Origin: Antricoccus suffuscus
Lineage (GTDB): Bacteria > Actinomycetota > Actinomycetes > Mycobacteriales > Antricoccaceae
Direction of reading: 5' to 3'
Assembly: GCF_003003235.1 (NCBI RefSeq)
Contig: NZ_PVUE01000022.1
Span: 1-64,000, forward strand
DNA length: 64,000 nucleotides
Of this stretch, positions 35,792 to 44,047 are shown in pieces. The notes below the pieces were generated by a model. The model saw nothing but the letters and a program-made list of their open reading frames with translations. It was not told the DNA's origin and did no database searches. The position numbers and the translations under genes are program-made. How positions within the stretch are numbered: the stretch's first letter is position 1; each line of letters begins with the position of its first letter.

Positions 35792-36934
35792 ATGGTGGCA
35801 GGTGGAGCGGTTTTAGACGGTGTTCGGGTAATCGAGCTGACGCATGCGATTGCTGGTCCGCAATGCGGCCAGATTCTTGCCGATCACGGCGCGGACGTCA
35901 TCAAGGTAGAGCCGCCGACGGGCGAGCGTGCCCGTAATGCCTACCCGCACCGCAATGACGAGAGCATCTACTTTGCCTGCCACAACAGGGGAAAGCGCAG
36001 CGTCGTTCTCGATCTTAAGAATGCCGACGATATGGCGAAGTTCCGCCAGCTGCTCGCCGGAGCAGACGTAATCCTGACGAACTACACGGTCGACGTACCC
36101 AAGAAGCTCGGCTGGGATTATGAGACCGTCACGAAGTTCAACCCGTCTATCGTGATGGCGCACATCACCGGCTTTGGCGCAACTGGGCCAGATCGTGGAC
36201 TACGTGCATACGACGGCATCATCCAGGCGATGAGCGGTATTGCAGAGATGTCCGGTACGACCGACTCAGGACCAATGTTCGCCAATGCCTGGATCGCCGA
36301 CCACATCGCGAGCTATCAGGCCGCGCTGGGAATCATGTTCGCGCTCTACCGCCGCAAGCTCACGGGGCAAGGCGAGCTCGTCGATATTGGCATGCTTGAG
36401 TCGTACGCCGCGACGTCCGCGCACGCTATCGAGGCGTCGCTCATGGGCGAGCCGGTTCGGCCGATGGGCAATAAATTGGAGATGTCGTACGCGGACACGT
36501 TTGCCGCGAGCGATGGTTCGATCTTTTTGTCCCCGCTTGGTCAGGAAACGTGGGAGCGGTTCTGCCGCGCAATTGGCGAGCCGTCCTGGATTGACGACAT
36601 CTCTTACGAGGCAGCGACTTTTGACCGACGCGACGAGACTTCCAAGGTCGTGGCCGCGTGGTGCGAACGGCGTACCAGAGCGCAGATCGCCGACGTGATG
36701 GCCGAGTACGGGATTCCCTGTGGGCCTGTGCAGTCCTCGAAGGAGTACGCCGAACATGCGCTGCAGACCGGTTCGCGCTCGGTCGCGGAGGTGACAACAC
36801 CGAGCGGTCAACGACTCAGAGTGCCCGGTCCCATCGCGCCGGTCGGGCTAAGCCAGAGCGCGCGGCGCTGGCAGGTGCCCGGACTCGGCGAGCACACTGA
36901 AGAGGTGCTCGCCGAGCTCGACGGTCAAGCGTGA
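35792..36934 (+). CDS. CaiB/BaiF family (class III) CoA-transferase
   Basis: 380 residues. Typical features: LDGVRVIELTHAIAGPQCGQILADHGADVIKVEPP, the GYETVTKFNPSIV-like segment, catalytic Asp in NAWIADHIA (the aspartate that forms the glutamyl/aspartyl-CoA anhydride), and KLTGQGELVDIGM. It moves CoA between acids. Start ATG 35792 has CAGGGAG seven bases upstream; the longer frame overlaps the terminator of the preceding gene. Its last ten bases overlap the convergent reductase gene. Confidence 0.92.
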   Translation: MVAGGAVLDGVRVIELTHAIAGPQCGQILADHGADVIKVEPPTGERARNAYPHRNDESIYFACHNRGKRSVVLDLKNADDMAKFRQLLAGADVILTNYTVDVPKKLGWDYETVTKFNPSIVMAHITGFGATGPDRGLRAYDGIIQAMSGIAEMSGTTDSGPMFANAWIADHIASYQAALGIMFALYRRKLTGQGELVDIGMLESYAATSAHAIEASLMGEPVRPMGNKLEMSYADTFAASDGSIFLSPLGQETWERFCRAIGEPSWIDDISYEAATFDRRDETSKVVAAWCERRTRAQIADVMAEYGIPCGPVQSSKEYAEHALQTGSRSVAEVTTPSGQRLRVPGPIAPVGLSQSARRWQVPGLGEHTEEVLAELDGQA

Positions 36935-38046
36935 ACGGTCAGCTCCGGCTCCATCACAAGCCCGAAGCTGCGTAGTACGCCAAGAAGTTCGCGGTGCCCG
37001 AACGCCTGGCACGCAGAGGCGAACCCGGCGCGCTTCGGCGCCTGCTGCAGCAGCGAGTACGCCGCGTAGGCCTGAAGCAGGCCGGTCTGTTTGTAGTTGG
37101 AATTGCCGTGGATCACGCAGTGTGCCCGGCCGAGTGGGCCTGAAGCATAGACGGAATCCAGCGAGGTGTTGATCCTAGGATTTTCGCGCGGCGGCATATC
37201 GGCCTGCACCGAACCGGCGACCTCCGCCAGCGCCGCCTCTTGTTCGGCGGGCCCCAGCGGTTTGATCTGCTCCTCGAACATCGTCGTGGTCGCGACCACC
37301 GTGTCCATCACGGTCCGGTCAAACACGCCGCCGGCAACCTTCACGTTGGCCACCCGCGGATCGTTCTTAAACCAGACCGGGTGCGACGTACCACCCCATG
37401 GAACGGCGAGCGCGGTCGCGTGCTGACCGGGAACGCTGACCTCGAAGGTGGTGTCGGCGGGCCATTGCTTGTATTGGTTTTGCTCGAGGTAGAACCAGTC
37501 TGCCTTGAGGATAGTGAAGATCGTCTGCATCGAGGCGTACGTCGGAAATCCCTTCCACAGCACGAGAATGTCGAGAGTGTCGAGACCGGGAGTCTCGAGG
37601 CAGATATTCGCAGCGATCTCGCCGGTGGTGTACATCTGCGCGACGCCGGGGGACAACAAGAGACCCTTGTCGGCGTACTTCTCGCCCCACTTGGACTGCG
37701 CATCTAAGACCCAGTCCTGCTCGCCGGTCGTGTCCATGTAATGGCAGCCGGCCGCGAGGCTGGCATCAACGACCTCGTGACCAAACTTAATGAATGGGCC
37801 GACCATATTGCTGACGACCGAGGCGCCGGAGAACAGCTCTGTCAGCGCGCCCACGTCATGTTCGACTTCGACAACTTCGTGCTCGACCGTGTCTATGCCG
37901 GGAACCTTATCGATAACCTCCTGGACTCGCCGTTTATCGCGGCCCGCGGCGATAAACGGGACGTTGAACTCGCGGAGGTACTCACACACGAGTCGTCCGG
38001 TGTAGCCCGAGACCCCATATACGACGACCGGTTTATCGGTGCTCAT
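36925..38046 (-). CDS. Saccharopine-dehydrogenase-like NAD(P)-binding protein
   Basis: 373 residues. Rossmann start VVVYGVSGYTGRLVCEYL with an atypical glycine pattern (GxxGxxG), as in saccharopine-dehydrogenase-like and trans-acting enoyl reductase proteins. VVSNMVGPFIKFG and ACHYMDTTGEQ-type segment (GCHYMDTTGEQDW) fit this family. The C-terminal two thirds have mixed alpha/beta character, no membrane helix. The substrate is unknown; in related clusters such proteins act in lipid or polyketide reduction. The SDR gene ends two bases upstream, so the two are one operon facing a TetR gene. Confidence 0.75.
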   Translation of the reverse strand: MSTDKPVVVYGVSGYTGRLVCEYLREFNVPFIAAGRDKRRVQEVIDKVPGIDTVEHEVVEVEHDVGALTELFSGASVVSNMVGPFIKFGHEVVDASLAAGCHYMDTTGEQDWVLDAQSKWGEKYADKGLLLSPGVAQMYTTGEIAANICLETPGLDTLDILVLWKGFPTYASMQTIFTILKADWFYLEQNQYKQWPADTTFEVSVPGQHATALAVPWGGTSHPVWFKNDPRVANVKVAGGVFDRTVMDTVVATTTMFEEQIKPLGPAEQEAALAEVAGSVQADMPPRENPRINTSLDSVYASGPLGRAHCVIHGNSNYKQTGLLQAYAAYSLLQQAPKRAGFASACQAFGHRELLGVLRSFGLVMEPELTVHA

Positions 38047-39785: not shown

Positions 39786-40109
39786 ATGGCAGGACCAAAG
39801 ATCGACATCGACGCCGTCCAGTCGGCGATGAGCGCGGTCGACGACGGACAGGCGCAGATGGAAGCGGTGACGCAGCAGATACTTGCCTCGTCGGGACTCT
39901 CACTACAGGCGATGAAGGCCCCGGCTGGTCAGGTCGCGGCGAACACGTTCGGGCAGCTAGGCGGTGGCGGTAAGGCGCTCGCCGAGCAGCTGGCTGCGTT
40001 GCGCGACGACCTCGGCAAGCTTGTGCAGGTCGCACTGGCCGGGTCGGACGACGCCACAGCGGCCGCGAAGTCCGGGATTGCCATGACGACCAGCGCCGGA
40101 ATGGCCTAG
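39786..40109 (+). CDS. Small helical protein A of a two-gene unit
   Basis: 107 residues, no Cys, no signal peptide, Ala/Gln-rich. Predicted helices at about 8-36 (VQSAMSAVDDGQAQMEAVTQQIL) and 60-85, separated by NTFGQLGGGGK. The size and helix-loop-helix form recall WXG100-type proteins exported by type VII systems, but there is no WxG motif. The ribosome site AAGGAGG is perfect and six bases from the ATG, so expression may be high. Partner gene follows after nine bases. Function unknown. Confidence 0.75.
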   Translation: MAGPKIDIDAVQSAMSAVDDGQAQMEAVTQQILASSGLSLQAMKAPAGQVAANTFGQLGGGGKALAEQLAALRDDLGKLVQVALAGSDDATAAAKSGIAMTTSAGMA

Positions 40110-40118
40110 GAGATCGCC

Positions 40119-40412
40119 ATGGGACTGATTGCCTTTGACACCAACGGAATCGCCGACATCGCGGCACAGACGATCGCTCGGCAACAGCAGTGGGACGACA
40201 TCTGGAGCTCCGTCAAGAGCCGGATTGGAGCCACGGTCGCGGGCGACCTCGATGCGCTGACGGGCATGAGCCTGGAGGAACGGTCTGCCGCGTATGCCGC
40301 CAAGACCGCGCAGTACACGATCCAACTACAGGCACAGGCGCAGGCGACGGCAAAGATCGGCAGCATTGCCGCGGAAACCAACCAGGCGATGGCGCGGGTG
40401 ATCGCCGGATAA
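40119..40412 (+). CDS. Small helical protein B of a two-gene unit
   Basis: 97 residues, no Cys. A first helix (about 8-45) contains two close Trp (QWDDIWSSV); a turn near LTGMSLEE leads to a long second helix (52-92) rich in Gln/Ala (TIQLQAQAQATAKI). This is the size and helical hairpin form of ESAT-6/WXG100 proteins, without a clear WxG or a C-terminal YxxxD/E signal. TAGGAGA lies seven bases before ATG. It starts nine bases after its partner; they probably form a heterodimer. No secretion genes are nearby. Confidence 0.75.
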   Translation: MGLIAFDTNGIADIAAQTIARQQQWDDIWSSVKSRIGATVAGDLDALTGMSLEERSAAYAAKTAQYTIQLQAQAQATAKIGSIAAETNQAMARVIAG

Positions 40413-40413
40413 C

Positions 40414-42525
40414 TCAGCCGACGAAGACGGCGGCGTCGACCGCCACAATGCCGCTTTCGTTGAGAATCAGCGGATTGACATCGAGGCTCTGCACGTCGTG
40501 ATTTGCCGTCATCAGATCGCCCACGGCGCACACCGCATCCGCCCACGCATCCACCGCGGCCGGTGGCTCGCCACGTAGCCCAGTGAGAATCGAGGTGACC
40601 CGAAGCCCCGCCATCGCGTGCCGCACATCGTCGCGAGAGAACGGCGGCGGCAGCAGCGCAGCGTCGTCGAGAGCCTCGACATACTTGCCTCCGGCGCCGA
40701 ACACGACGACCGGGCCAAACGTCTTGTCGCGGTGCGCGCCGACCATCACCTCGTGGCCGCGACTGGCCATCGCGGCGACGAGTACGCCGTCGAAGGCGAG
40801 ATTGGCTGACTTCATCCGCTCGCACAGTCGCTCGTACGCGGCGACCGCGTCGTTCGTGGTCTGGATGTCGAGCGCGACCAGCCCGAGCTCCGACTTATGC
40901 GGTGCGTCCGCCGAACAGCCCTTGACGGCTACCGGCGTACCGAGGTTGGCTACGGCCTCACGTACGTCACTTTCGTTGCGGCACAGCCGAAAGGGGATCG
41001 TTGGTACGCCGGACGCCGCTAGGCGGAGCAAGCTGTCAGCCTCGCTGAGACTCGTGCTCGACGCTGCCGCCCCGCTCGGCGCGTCCACGAGCGGCGAGCG
41101 GAAGGACTCAGGGCGTGAGCGCGCAATCAGCGCGTGATGACTGGCGTAGCGGTCCAGCGAGTCGACGGCCGTTGCCTCGTCGCCAAACACGACAAGGCCC
41201 TTCTTCTTGAACTCGGCGGCGACGGATTGCTGCGGCGCGACGATCACCACCGGCTTACCGGTCTGGTCGCTCACGGCGGCGGCATCGCGGGCGAACCGCG
41301 GTACGTCGTACCCCTTGCCGGCCACTGGCACCGCGAGGATGAAAATGTCCGCTGACGTGTCGCGGGCGATGACCGGAAGCGACCGACCGAAAAGCCCACT
41401 GTCCGACAGCAGCGCGGCGGTGACGTCCACCGGGTTCGTGGAGGTGGCGAACCCGGGCAGGATCTCGCGCAATTCGGCCTCGATGTCAGGGGCGAAGGTC
41501 GTGAGCGGCATGCCGCGGTCGGTCGCGGCATCGGCCGTCAGCACGCACAGCGCACCAGAATTGCTCATAATCACGAGGTTCCGGCCTTCGGGTGTCCACC
41601 CCTTCAAGTACAGCTCGGCGGTGTCGACCATTTCGCGCATGCTGCGGACCCGCCAGATACCCAGTTTCTCGAAGTACGCGTTGACTACGGCGTCCTCGTT
41701 GGCAATCGCGCCGGTATGCGATTTCGCGGCGCGCTGCCCGTCGGCGCTGCGCCCGCCCATGATGGCCACGATCGGTACGCCGCGTTGTTTGGCGGTGGCC
41801 GCCGCCCCGGCCAATGAGTCCGGATCGGCGAGATTCTCTAGGTATAGAAGCAGAAGTTTGACGTCAGGGTCTTGTACGACGGCCTCGCTCAGCTCGCCGA
41901 CGTTGATGTCGGCGTCGTTGCCGGTGGCGTGCACGTGGCGGATGCCCAGCCCGCGAGCCCGCAATAGACCATAGGGCACGGACGACATCGCACCGCTCTG
42001 GCTGATGATCGCGATCTCGCCGTCCATCGGCTCTTGCTCGGTGAACAACGTCGAGAAGTTCAAGATCGCGCCGTTGCCGAAGTTGGCGACGCCTTGAGAG
42101 TTGGGCCCGATCATGCGCATTCCTGCAGCACGCGCCGTCGCGACCATTTCACGTTGCTGCGCCTGGCCCGTGGGATCGGGGACTTCGCCGAAGCCCGAGG
42201 CCATGACGACGACCGCCTTGACGCCGCGGGCGGCGCACTCGGCGACTGCCTTGACGGTGCGGTCGCCGGCGACCGCGATGATCACTGCGTCTGGGATGAC
42301 CGGCAGCGCCTCGAGGCTGGGAAACGCGGGGAGATCCTGCACGGTCTCGCGGCTCGGATTGATCGGGTAGATGTCTCCGGTGTACCCGAACTGTTTCATG
42401 TACTTGATCGGCCGGCCACCGATCTTGTCTGGATCAGACGATGCGCCGATGATCGCCACGGATCGTGGAGCCAGCAGCGCGGCTATTCCTGACGGCGAAC
42501 GTGCCGGCTGCGGTCCAGTGGTCAT
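40414..42525 (-). CDS. NDP-forming acyl-CoA synthetase (fused alpha and beta domains)
   Basis: 703 residues. Domain order: CoA-binding (PRSVAIIGASSDPDKIGGRP), succinyl-CoA-ligase-like flavodoxin domains with IISQSGAMSS and the catalytic His in KSHTGAIANEDAV, then a C-terminal ATP-grasp domain (SGVPTIPFRLC onward, PVAVKGCS, FGAGGKYVE, VNPLILNE). This is the ADP-forming acetyl/acyl-CoA synthetase family, single-chain. It activates an acid to its CoA ester. No acetyltransferase domain is present. Divergent from the thiolase-like gene with 80 bases between starts, suggesting joint function. Confidence 0.92.
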   Translation of the reverse strand: MTTGPQPARSPSGIAALLAPRSVAIIGASSDPDKIGGRPIKYMKQFGYTGDIYPINPSRETVQDLPAFPSLEALPVIPDAVIIAVAGDRTVKAVAECAARGVKAVVVMASGFGEVPDPTGQAQQREMVATARAAGMRMIGPNSQGVANFGNGAILNFSTLFTEQEPMDGEIAIISQSGAMSSVPYGLLRARGLGIRHVHATGNDADINVGELSEAVVQDPDVKLLLLYLENLADPDSLAGAAATAKQRGVPIVAIMGGRSADGQRAAKSHTGAIANEDAVVNAYFEKLGIWRVRSMREMVDTAELYLKGWTPEGRNLVIMSNSGALCVLTADAATDRGMPLTTFAPDIEAELREILPGFATSTNPVDVTAALLSDSGLFGRSLPVIARDTSADIFILAVPVAGKGYDVPRFARDAAAVSDQTGKPVVIVAPQQSVAAEFKKKGLVVFGDEATAVDSLDRYASHHALIARSRPESFRSPLVDAPSGAAASSTSLSEADSLLRLAASGVPTIPFRLCRNESDVREAVANLGTPVAVKGCSADAPHKSELGLVALDIQTTNDAVAAYERLCERMKSANLAFDGVLVAAMASRGHEVMVGAHRDKTFGPVVVFGAGGKYVEALDDAALLPPPFSRDDVRHAMAGLRVTSILTGLRGEPPAAVDAWADAVCAVGDLMTANHDVQSLDVNPLILNESGIVAVDAAVFVG

Positions 42526-42605
42526 ATGCCTGTTCCATCCTGTTCGGGAGGTCGCGCTACCGTGCGAAGGTCGATAGCAAGACTAACCATACGAGGCAGG
42601 GGCAT

Positions 42606-43742
42606 ATGGCCTGGATTAGCGGGATCGGACTCACGCCGTACGGCAAACAACCAGGACCGGGCGCGGTCGACTGGCAGAGTCTTGCGGCACGCGCGGCGAT
42701 GCACGACGCCGGGCTCGGCTCGTCCGTAATTGACGGAGTACTCGCCGGCTACGCGACAACCATCGGGCACATCATGCCGTCGGACTTACTCGCTGAGCGG
42801 CTCGGTATCCGCCCGCGGGTTGCTTCCGGCATGAGCGTCGGCGGCGCGACGGGGCTGTCGATGGTTGCGCAGGCCGCCCGGACGGTCGACACGGGTGCCG
42901 CCGACCACGTGCTCGTAGCCGGCGGTGAGGACCGGGCGAGCGGACAGAGCACCGAGACCTCCACTCGAACGCTCGCACAGGTCGGGCACGCGGCGTACGA
43001 GGTGCCGACCGGTTGCACCGTGCCCGGCTACTACGCGCTGCTGGCATCTGAGTACTTGCATAAGCACGGCCTCGACCGAGAGGCGCTCGCGCCGTTCGCG
43101 GTGCATATGCGGACCAACGCGCTTCGGCATCCTGGCGCGCAGTTCTCAAAACCGATCACCATCGACGACGTACTCGCCGCGCGGCCTATCGCCGAACCGC
43201 TGCACCTGCTGGACTGCTGCCCGACGTCAGATGGGGGAGCGGCGTTCGTGGTGACCGCGCAGCCGAGGGACAAGCGCAGCATCAGAATCAGCGGAATCGG
43301 CGAAGGCCATATGCACCAGCACATCAGCGAGGCCGACAGCGATAACTTTGGCGCGCGGATTGCCGCGGAGCGGGCGTTTGAATCGTCGGGGCGTCGTCGC
43401 GACGAAATCGACATCCTCGGCGTTTACGACTCGTTCACGATCACTATCGCCTTGCTGCTTGAGGAGATCGGCTTCTCGGCCGCGGGCCGCAGTGGTGCCG
43501 ACGTACTTGACGGCAGGTATGCCGCGGACGGCGAGTTTCCCCTCAACCTGCACGGTGGACTGCTGTCATACGGGCACTGTGGGGTCGCGGGTGGGATGGC
43601 GCACTTGGCCGAGGTCGTCACGCAGTTGCGCGGCGAGGCCGGTGATCGTGCCATTGCGAGACAACCGTCGACCGGTTTCGTGCATGCCGACGGTGGCGTG
43701 ATGTCCGCACACGTCAGCCTTGTTGTGGAGGCAGCGGCATGA
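42606..43742 (+). CDS. Thiolase-superfamily protein lacking the nucleophilic Cys (SCP-x/Ltp-like)
   Basis: 378 residues from ATG 42606. Overall similar to the SCP-x/lipid-transfer thiolases: LLDCCPTSDGGAAFVV and the C-terminal GGLLSYGHCGVAGG. The nucleophile position is Gly80 (SVGGATGL for the usual C-S/A-S-G-L), and the His of the HDCF motif is Tyr274 (YDSF); only the His of the GHP motif remains (GHC). Classical thiolysis is therefore unlikely. The same loss occurs in Ltp2-type retro-aldolases of steroid side-chain degradation, which need a DUF35 partner; a DUF35 gene overlaps the 3' end here by four bases (ATGA). Confidence 0.85.
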   Translation: MAWISGIGLTPYGKQPGPGAVDWQSLAARAAMHDAGLGSSVIDGVLAGYATTIGHIMPSDLLAERLGIRPRVASGMSVGGATGLSMVAQAARTVDTGAADHVLVAGGEDRASGQSTETSTRTLAQVGHAAYEVPTGCTVPGYYALLASEYLHKHGLDREALAPFAVHMRTNALRHPGAQFSKPITIDDVLAARPIAEPLHLLDCCPTSDGGAAFVVTAQPRDKRSIRISGIGEGHMHQHISEADSDNFGARIAAERAFESSGRRRDEIDILGVYDSFTITIALLLEEIGFSAAGRSGADVLDGRYAADGEFPLNLHGGLLSYGHCGVAGGMAHLAEVVTQLRGEAGDRAIARQPSTGFVHADGGVMSAHVSLVVEAAA

Positions 43743-44047
43743 GCGAGGAAGCGATGATTGTGGTGCGTGCTTGCGCAGACTGTGGCGCCGTCTGGTATCT
43801 GCCGCGCGACCTCTGTCCCGGGTGTGGTTCCGAGACCGTGACCGCGCGTCCCAGCGAAGGCGTGGGGACGTGCGCGGCTGTCACTCGGTACGCCGCTACC
43901 GAAGATCAGCCGCGCCGCGCGTTCTGCTTGATCGACCTCGATGAGGGGGCTCGAATGATGGCACGTTGCGAGCCGTCGCTCAATCCAGGCGATCGTGTGA
44001 CCGCGACGTACGTCGACGGCATGCCGCATTTCATCGGCAGCAGGTAG
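43739..44047 (+). CDS. DUF35 OB-fold/zinc-ribbon protein (acyl-CoA-binding partner)
   Basis: 102 residues. Zinc ribbon with two Cys pairs (CADC and CPGC, residues 13-30), then a DUF35 OB-fold: GVGTCAAVTRYA and GDRVTATYVDGMPHF. DUF35 proteins stabilise or complete thiolase-like enzymes; with Ltp2 the DUF35 domain of ChsH2 is required for aldolase activity. The ATGA overlap with the thiolase-like gene shows tight coupling. Convergent with the FMN-oxidase gene. Confidence 0.9.
   Translation: MSEEAMIVVRACADCGAVWYLPRDLCPGCGSETVTARPSEGVGTCAAVTRYAATEDQPRRAFCLIDLDEGARMMARCEPSLNPGDRVTATYVDGMPHFIGSR

Follow-up and report, generated by a model that had tools for sequence, protein, structure and literature searches.

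A gene pair in a 64,000-nucleotide window of the Antricoccus suffuscus contig NZ_PVUE01000022.1 (coordinates are positions in this window) probably encodes a coenzyme A (CoA)-dependent retro-aldolase built on a thiolase fold. The first gene (42606-43742, forward strand) encodes a cysteine-less protein of 378 residues, here termed Thl, whose substrate would be a beta-hydroxyacyl-CoA, likely not a steroid. The second (43739-44047, forward strand) encodes a 102-residue DUF35-type protein proposed as its partner. By Pfam, the Thl open reading frame contains Thiolase_N (45 bits, cut-off 26.4) and Thiolase_C_1 (139 bits, cut-off 28), and the assignment further draws on alignment, a phylogenetic tree and a structural model. 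A first-pass annotation of the window had proposed an aldolase resembling Ltp2 with a DUF35 partner. That proposal is probably correct at its core, subject to three corrections: His324 is the likelier second catalytic residue, the protein is not an Ltp2, and an acyl-CoA synthetase gene is linked to the pair. The annotation had missed this synthetase and, in relatives, a hydratase.

Both residues that define a cysteine thiolase are replaced in Thl. Aligned with solved relatives, Thl has Gly80 (codon 42843-42845) where the thiolases 7yvy and 6esq have the nucleophilic Cys of 'ACASG', and Tyr274 at their HDxF His. Tyr274 opens the motif Tyr274-Asp-Ser276-Phe277 (YDSF; 43425-43436), at the position of the SCP2-thiolase HDCF; the place of Ser276 is Cys or Ala in the Cys thiolases of the set. 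His324 (codon 43575-43577) aligns with the second, GHx, His of 7yvy and 6esq and with TcLtp2 Tyr344 and CtSal Gln352. In a clade of 20 proteins formed by Thl and its closest relatives, G79, G80, Y274, D275, S276, F277 and H324 are each present in 20/20, and 95 of 378 columns are invariant, suggesting an active site under clear constraint. The Gly80 and Tyr274 replacements noted by the first-pass annotation held throughout the clade, and are shared with Sal as well as with Ltp2. Tyr322, which had been offered as a further active-site tyrosine, did not hold: it is Tyr in 18 of the 20 rows, Phe in two (L052, L053; L numbers denote loci) and other letters in neighbouring groups. Because Tyr322 is not conserved, it was rejected as a catalytic residue and His324 is the likelier candidate.

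With Cys80 missing, the ordinary thiolase mechanism is unavailable to Thl, which has the fold of a Cys thiolase and neither its nucleophilic Cys nor its HDxF His. That Thl is nonetheless a true thiolase using another nucleophile is most improbable: the fold, the structurally nearest proteins (Cys thiolases) and the best NCBIfam model, named acetyl-CoA acetyltransferase, would fit this idea, but the model scores far below its cut-off (253 versus 421 bits), position 80 is neither Cys nor Ser, and the tree described below separates Thl from five Cys thiolases at 100/100. Loss of the thiolase residues at both places could also signify a catalytically dead protein, kept as a subunit that binds CoA or acts as a scaffold for DUF35 or for some other enzyme. 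We consider this very improbable, as Tyr274, Ser276, His324 and other pocket residues would not need to be kept in 20/20 sequences by a dead site, and relatives with the same losses are described as active (PMC12329534).

Among 99 aligned proteins (excluding those under 300 residues or identical), all five with Cys80 have His274, whereas all 94 without Cys80 have Tyr274 (one, L125, has a gap at 80). Position 324 in the 94 is His or Tyr in 82, Gln in eight, Arg in three and a gap in one, and all nine rows with Gln or the gap carry Cys276. A rule of acid at 324 or Cys at 276 is a lead and not proof, because the rows are related and not independent, some represent one gene twice (e.g. L087/L039 and L120/L037), the Gln-Cys combination is a single, Sal-like lineage, a second lineage (L031) accounts for the gap, and the 324 loop of row L137 is poorly aligned. 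In TcLtp2, Tyr294 is described as the base and Tyr344 as the acid, and in CtSal Tyr302 is paired with Cys304, with Gln352 at the Tyr344 place (PMC12329534). Judged by aligned residues, Tyr/His of Thl would be a third combination beside Tyr/Tyr of Ltp2 and Tyr/Cys of Sal, a new pairing in a kind of enzyme already known. Ser276 is unlikely to play the Cys304 role of Sal. Three cysteine-less proteins (L105, L106 and L029:4240-5421) show yet another arrangement, YDGF with Arg at the 324 place and, in two, Met at 80, which no known acid-base pair fits.

A tree of 59 proteins (IQ-TREE, LG+C20) comprised 54 cysteine-less rows and five Cys thiolases; a BbsB fragment (7pxp) and L027, the same gene as L043, were dropped beforehand. 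All 54 cysteine-less rows lie on one side of a 100/100 branch and the five Cys thiolases on the other, such that Thl falls on the aldolase side, as the first-pass annotation had supposed. Thl groups with 19 relatives at 100/100, L054 being the nearest. These comprise 15 genome-scan loci, from Pseudonocardia and kin, Actinomycetospora, Nocardioidaceae, a Frankiaceae metagenome-assembled genome (MAG) and two alphaproteobacterial MAGs, and four plasmid loci, from Cnuibacter, Paracoccaceae, Comamonas and Methylobacterium. Rows of Ltp2, of the bile-acid enzyme Sal and of the ibuprofen enzyme IpfD form supported groups of their own outside this clade, on the same side of the 100/100 branch; Ltp2 and IpfD share one group (98/96), and the deeper forks joining groups are weak (89/53, 88/56). 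Approximately unbiased (AU) tests rejected grouping the clade with Ltp2 (p 3e-5) or with Sal (p 1e-54), a rejection that covers those exact groupings, which joined the clade to either group while leaving out the rows that neighbour the clade. The window clade thus appears, on sequence grounds, to be a relative of the Ltp2, Sal and IpfD aldolases and not one of them. Membership of Ltp2 was rejected on YDSF and His324 instead of YDHF and Tyr, the separate clade and the AU test; membership of Sal on Ser276 and His324 instead of the Cys of YDCY and Gln, the tree and the AU test; and membership of IpfD on the tree. The NCBIfam lipid-transfer model PRK07855, presumably the Ltp2 model, gave Thl 174.5 bits, below its cut-off of 469. 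Thl does show the marks of the wider kind, thiolase-fold aldolases with a DUF35 partner: Cys replaced by Gly and His by Tyr, a place in the tree apart from Cys thiolases, and a DUF35 gene alongside.

Sampling of the clade was by two peptide patterns, one taken from Thl and the other from a relative, which found 17 genome loci (15 in the clade; two archaeal loci, at 31-32%, were left out of the tree), and by a plasmid search from which nine loci (H1-H7, H14, H15) were taken among the 40 matches listed of 573 records, four of them in the clade. The clade is surely larger than 20. Close copies of Thl are patchy in distribution: among 101 genomes of relatives, a match at 1e-60 occurred in the window's genome and one other (41% identical), and at class level 18 of 394 genomes, the window's included, matched at 1e-55, 16 at 37-41% identity and one at 62%. 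The G+C content of the pair (66% and 65%) matches that of the window (64%), and nothing in its base composition therefore marks recent arrival.

Four systems allow closer comparison. Sal-Shy, the bile-acid side-chain aldolase of Comamonas testosteroni (PDB 9myr), resembles Thl in fold, in Gly for Cys and Tyr for His, in having a DUF35 partner and in the length of the active-site loop around 324. It differs in YDCY versus YDSF, in Gln352 versus His324 and in its separate clade, and its DUF35 partner is described as fused to MaoC and bearing a C3H1 zinc finger (PMC12329534). Ltp2-ChsH2, the cholesterol side-chain aldolase of Thermomonospora curvata (PDB 6ok1), has the same two losses and a DUF35 partner with a C4 ribbon of the same spacing as that in the window (spacing from PMC12329534). 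Unlike Thl, Ltp2 has YDHF, Tyr344 in a shorter loop and a separate clade, and its DUF35 domain is reported to be fused to MaoC (PMC11321319). IpfD-IpfE, encoded on plasmid pIBU218, removes the ibuprofen side chain, a non-steroid substrate, and likewise places a cysteine-less thiolase-like gene beside an OB (oligonucleotide/oligosaccharide-binding)-fold gene and a CoA ligase; the motif, YDAF, is also counted among the resemblances. An ipfD insertion is reported to stop growth on ibuprofen (PMC9195938). IpfD differs from Thl in its short, Tyr-bearing loop, which resembles that of Ltp2, with which it groups, and its locus in having an AMP-binding ligase and ring dioxygenase genes. The best solved sequence match (5e-59) is 4u4e, a putative thiolase of Sphaerobacter thermophilus, with GG, YDSF and a loop His as in Thl, but in another clade and with a loop one residue shorter; no paper naming 4U4E with thiolase or Sphaerobacter was found in the open-licence literature.

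The DUF35 gene is a constant companion of Thl. Sought directly downstream of Thl, a zinc-ribbon/DUF35 gene was present in 20/20 clade loci (19 by motif, L059 by annotation and Pfam), which supports the pairing with DUF35 proposed by the first-pass annotation. In the window the two genes overlap by an ATGA stop/start (43739-43742), suggestive of translational coupling. A start in the same place, 4 bp before the Thl stop, is possible in 18 of the 20 loci (ATG in 11, GTG in seven), and one at 1 bp in L047 and, by annotation, in L059; the first possible start was taken throughout, and the L061 record instead annotates a start 5 bp after the stop. The description 'fused by translation' was correct as to the overlap and too strong as to the proteins, which are separate. 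Outside the clade, several rows have DUF35 upstream of Thl (L028, L032).

The partner itself carries a C-x2-C-x10-C-x2-C zinc ribbon (43772-43825), a spacing described as the canonical type in contrast to the C3H1 ribbon of Shy (PMC12329534). It therefore differs from the fused, Shy-type partner of Sal in being a canonical C4, stand-alone protein, and, as had been claimed, it lacks the fused hydratase of ChsH2. Pfam recognises zf-ChsH2 (29.8 bits, cut-off 23.2); PF01796, for the OB half, did not match, and no Pfam model reached that half. A structural model of high confidence (predicted local distance difference test score, pLDDT, 95) matched Trf, a translation factor, at Z 14.1, the DUF35 protein 3irb at 9.1 and the next rows from 6.7. 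Compared with the DUF35 partners of MucABC, Ltp2, archaeal thiolase/HMG-CoA (3-hydroxy-3-methylglutaryl-CoA) synthase, Sal, PhlABC and kin, and BbsAB, it gave Z 10.7-11.8, and with 6ok1_D Z 11.6 over 101 residues. The predicted structure thus has an OB fold following the ribbon. Only 11 residues precede the first Cys, fewer than in most relatives, and the N-terminal helix is said to contribute to the contact in Sal-Shy (PMC12329534); by this analogy, the contact between Thl and its short partner may differ from that in Sal-Shy. Published statements conflict on the need for DUF35, which is described as not appearing important for activity (PMC11321319) and as essential (PMC12502768).

Divergent to Thl lies acs (40414-42525, reverse strand), encoding a 703-residue protein with CoA_binding_2, Succ_CoA_lig and ATP-grasp_5 domains and an HTG motif, the features of an ADP(NDP)-forming acyl-CoA synthetase; His270 of this motif is presumably catalytic. 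The 80-bp stretch between the genes (42526-42605) is probably a shared promoter region. We inspected up to 10 kb on each side of Thl (less in L043, L047, L052 and L053). Acs occurs near Thl in 15 of the 20 clade loci, the window included, with 13 others 49-61% identical to the window Acs and L060 33%; clusters L045, L046, L048 and L056 are closely similar, and the 20 loci are not 20 independent cases. In L045, from Pseudonocardia dioxanivorans CB1190, the genes for Thl, DUF35 and Acs all point the same way. The six other Acs matches in the 4.68-Mb genome of A. suffuscus reach at most 35% identity, and from seven copies we estimate the chance presence of Acs in a 20-kb stretch at about 3%. A plasmid search with the window Acs (1e-60, 171 records) had as its three best hits the copies that adjoin Thl in Methylobacterium, Comamonas and Cnuibacter.

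A MaoC hydratase gene is directly upstream of Thl in five of the 20 loci (L042, L044, L054, L055, L060), confirmed by Pfam in four, and overlaps Thl by 4 bp in L042, L044, L054 and L055 with the Thl start as chosen. Acs is absent in L042, L054 and L055, and neither gene adjoins Thl in L050 and L051. MaoC also lies within 1 kb in 6/6 rows of two neighbouring groups, of which L063 and L066 are supported sisters of the clade and L028, L064, L065 and L067 are joined at 89/53 only. Together, MaoC and Thl would be the same activity pair as ChsH1/H2-Ltp2 and Shy-Sal (PMC11321319, PMC12329534). The best match in the A. suffuscus genome to the L054 MaoC sits elsewhere (42%). At L060:9229-9609 and L066:9592-9975, proteins of 126-127 residues without a Pfam match at 0.01 lie beside MaoC; one is 39% similar to a MaoC-annotated L063 protein, and they are perhaps non-catalytic hydratase subunits as in ChsH1-ChsH2.

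These elements suggest the following route. Acs would convert an acid to its CoA thioester, as its linkage implies, and a MaoC hydratase, whose gene adjoins Thl in the nearest relatives and is unlinked in the window, would form the beta-hydroxyacyl-CoA unless the acid is already beta-hydroxylated. A complex of two Thl and two DUF35 subunits, by analogy with Sal-Shy and Ltp2-ChsH2, would then cleave the C2-C3 bond by retro-aldol chemistry to release acetyl-CoA or propionyl-CoA and an aldehyde or ketone. By position relative to the Ltp2 and Sal mutants, Tyr274 would take the proton of the beta-hydroxyl, the bond would break, and His324 would protonate the enolate. The FerA-FerB type of ferulate route offers a precedent in which an ADP-forming synthetase feeds hydration and retro-aldol cleavage, although the cleaving enzyme there is a crotonase and not of thiolase fold.

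Other neighbours are mixed. An aldehyde dehydrogenase (65-100% to that of L043) is near Thl in L043, L047, L049 and L059, which fits the need of an aldehyde product; L043, L047 and L049 combine alcohol and aldehyde dehydrogenases with an AMP ligase. L045 and its kin have a Baeyer-Villiger monooxygenase (BVMO), a mycofactocin-coupled short-chain dehydrogenase/reductase (SDR), and SnoaL-like and luciferase-like proteins, and L061 and L062 have AtuA. This variety points either to a catabolic module that has been put to use on several substrates or to a single substrate with several routes leading to it. The neighbours also bear on whether the same site runs in reverse, as an aldol-type condensing enzyme adding acetyl-CoA or propionyl-CoA to an aldehyde or ketone. 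Retro-aldol steps are reversible and Acs could supply the acyl-CoA, but neighbours are mostly catabolic (transporters, aldehyde and alcohol dehydrogenases, BVMO, acyl-CoA dehydrogenases) and the characterised relatives act in degradation, making a condensing role unlikely.

In L050 and L051 the gene divergent to Thl encodes a fused biotin-dependent acyl-CoA carboxylase, and in L055 such a gene lies 2.7 kb away. The presence of this enzyme would suit a Cys-independent decarboxylase, or another enolate-forming enzyme, acting on malonyl-type CoA esters in the manner of the Trypanosoma brucei SLP, which is reported to lack all five SCP2-thiolase Cys and to decarboxylate malonyl-CoA at 0.005 per second (PMC12329534) and is among the best structural matches of Thl (Z 48.9-49.4). 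Such an activity is very unlikely for Thl: the carboxylase occurs in just 3/20 loci, and CtSal, with the same losses, is described as not decarboxylating malonyl-CoA (PMC12329534).

Two further loci show related gene sets. Counterparts of the clade's Acs (54%), aldehyde dehydrogenase (60%), Zn alcohol dehydrogenase (51%) and AMP ligase (54%) form a cluster at L031:9653-10786, but the Thl there belongs to a different lineage (36%, YDCF) and its loop lacks His324; this looks like a swap of the cysteine-less protein within the same pathway. L144, an Acs relative without Thl (45.7%), shares its operon with two genes of enoyl-CoA hydratase type and one for an aldehyde dehydrogenase, an arrangement that looks ferulate-type; NCBIfam gave one hydratase-type gene the name 'enoyl-CoA hydratase' only and the other nothing at 1e-60, and L144 is not counted as evidence.

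Several observations weigh against a retro-aldolase. The Thl AlphaFold model (18-row alignment, pLDDT 82.6, residues 111-137 poorly predicted) has a thiolase fold, and its best matches are the Cys thiolases 7yvy (Z 49.9, 354 residues aligned, 1.9 A) and 6esq (Z 49.7), ahead of Sal (Z 47.8, 31% identity), 4u4e (45.7) and Ltp2 (45.6). The predicted fold does not separate aldolase from thiolase or favour aldolase; here, residues and tree position appear to tell them apart. His324 is the ordinary thiolase His, the retention of which is by itself no sign of a new role, and the three Arg324 rows (L105, L106, L029_4240) carry Gly276, outside any acid rule. Replacing the Cys of the Sal YDC motif with Ser or His is reported to have killed the enzyme (PMC12329534). 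In the gene neighbourhoods, no hydratase lies beside Thl in the window, two of the six neighbouring-group rows (L065, L067) lack an annotated DUF35 gene next to Thl, and SDR dehydrogenases in several clusters would be unneeded by a purely aldol route. Linkage of MaoC and Acs would also suit thiolytic beta-oxidation; the chance estimate given above applies to Acs. Finally, no measured activity for any clade member was found in the open-licence literature, nor was a study of this clade or of a thiolase-DUF35-ADP-forming synthetase module, or a paper giving 'YDSF' together with 'thiolase'.

The substrate is probably not a steroid, in line with the first-pass view that it need not be one. In the A. 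suffuscus genome, a search for a steroid route returned no KstR-type regulator over cut-off, a weak result as this is one marker and was also found in 0/14 control genomes; this search does not exclude steroids. The same genome has eight Thl matches: that of the window, six in the tree outside the Ltp2 group, and one weak fragment (L008) that was left out. One of the six, L037, sits in the Ltp2-IpfD branch, on its IpfD side. This paralogue (L037:9262-10452, contig C1) clusters at 100/99 with an IpfD-like protein from a plasmid of Rhodococcus qingshengii and has YDCY and a Tyr at the 324 place. From the neighbours, a branched or cyclic, terpenoid-like acid is our guess for the substrate of Thl. 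More tentatively, the clade might represent a third catalytic design, a Tyr-His site with the old thiolase His as proton donor, forming with Acs a compact module that takes an acid via its CoA ester to two fragments. Such a module could serve branched or cyclic terpenoid-like acids, in which oxidation could not turn the beta-carbon into a ketone and ordinary thiolysis would therefore be impossible.

In public databases, proteins of this kind are labelled thiolase, acetyl-CoA acetyltransferase or hypothetical protein. Should they prove to be aldolases, some of the 'thiolases' annotated in soil and marine bacteria would run a different chemistry, and enzyme engineers would gain a small, self-contained module for cutting hydroxyacyl-CoA. 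Tyr274 would be the constant element in the change from thiolase to aldolase site, as it is across the rows examined, and the proton donor could be located either at 324 (His or Tyr) or at 276 (Cys).

Downstream of the pair and convergent with it, an FMN-dependent dehydrogenase-family protein (PF01070; 44055-45236, reverse strand) matches L-lactate oxidase, LldD and MftD models, far below every cut-off. Between a TetR regulator and acs, two small open reading frames of 107 and 97 residues (39786-40412, forward strand) resemble a WXG100/ESX-type pair by eye only. Farther away, a DUF5938 protein with a saccharopine-dehydrogenase-type NADP domain (36925-38046, reverse strand), for which NCBIfam gave no model at 1e-3, adjoins an SDR gene.

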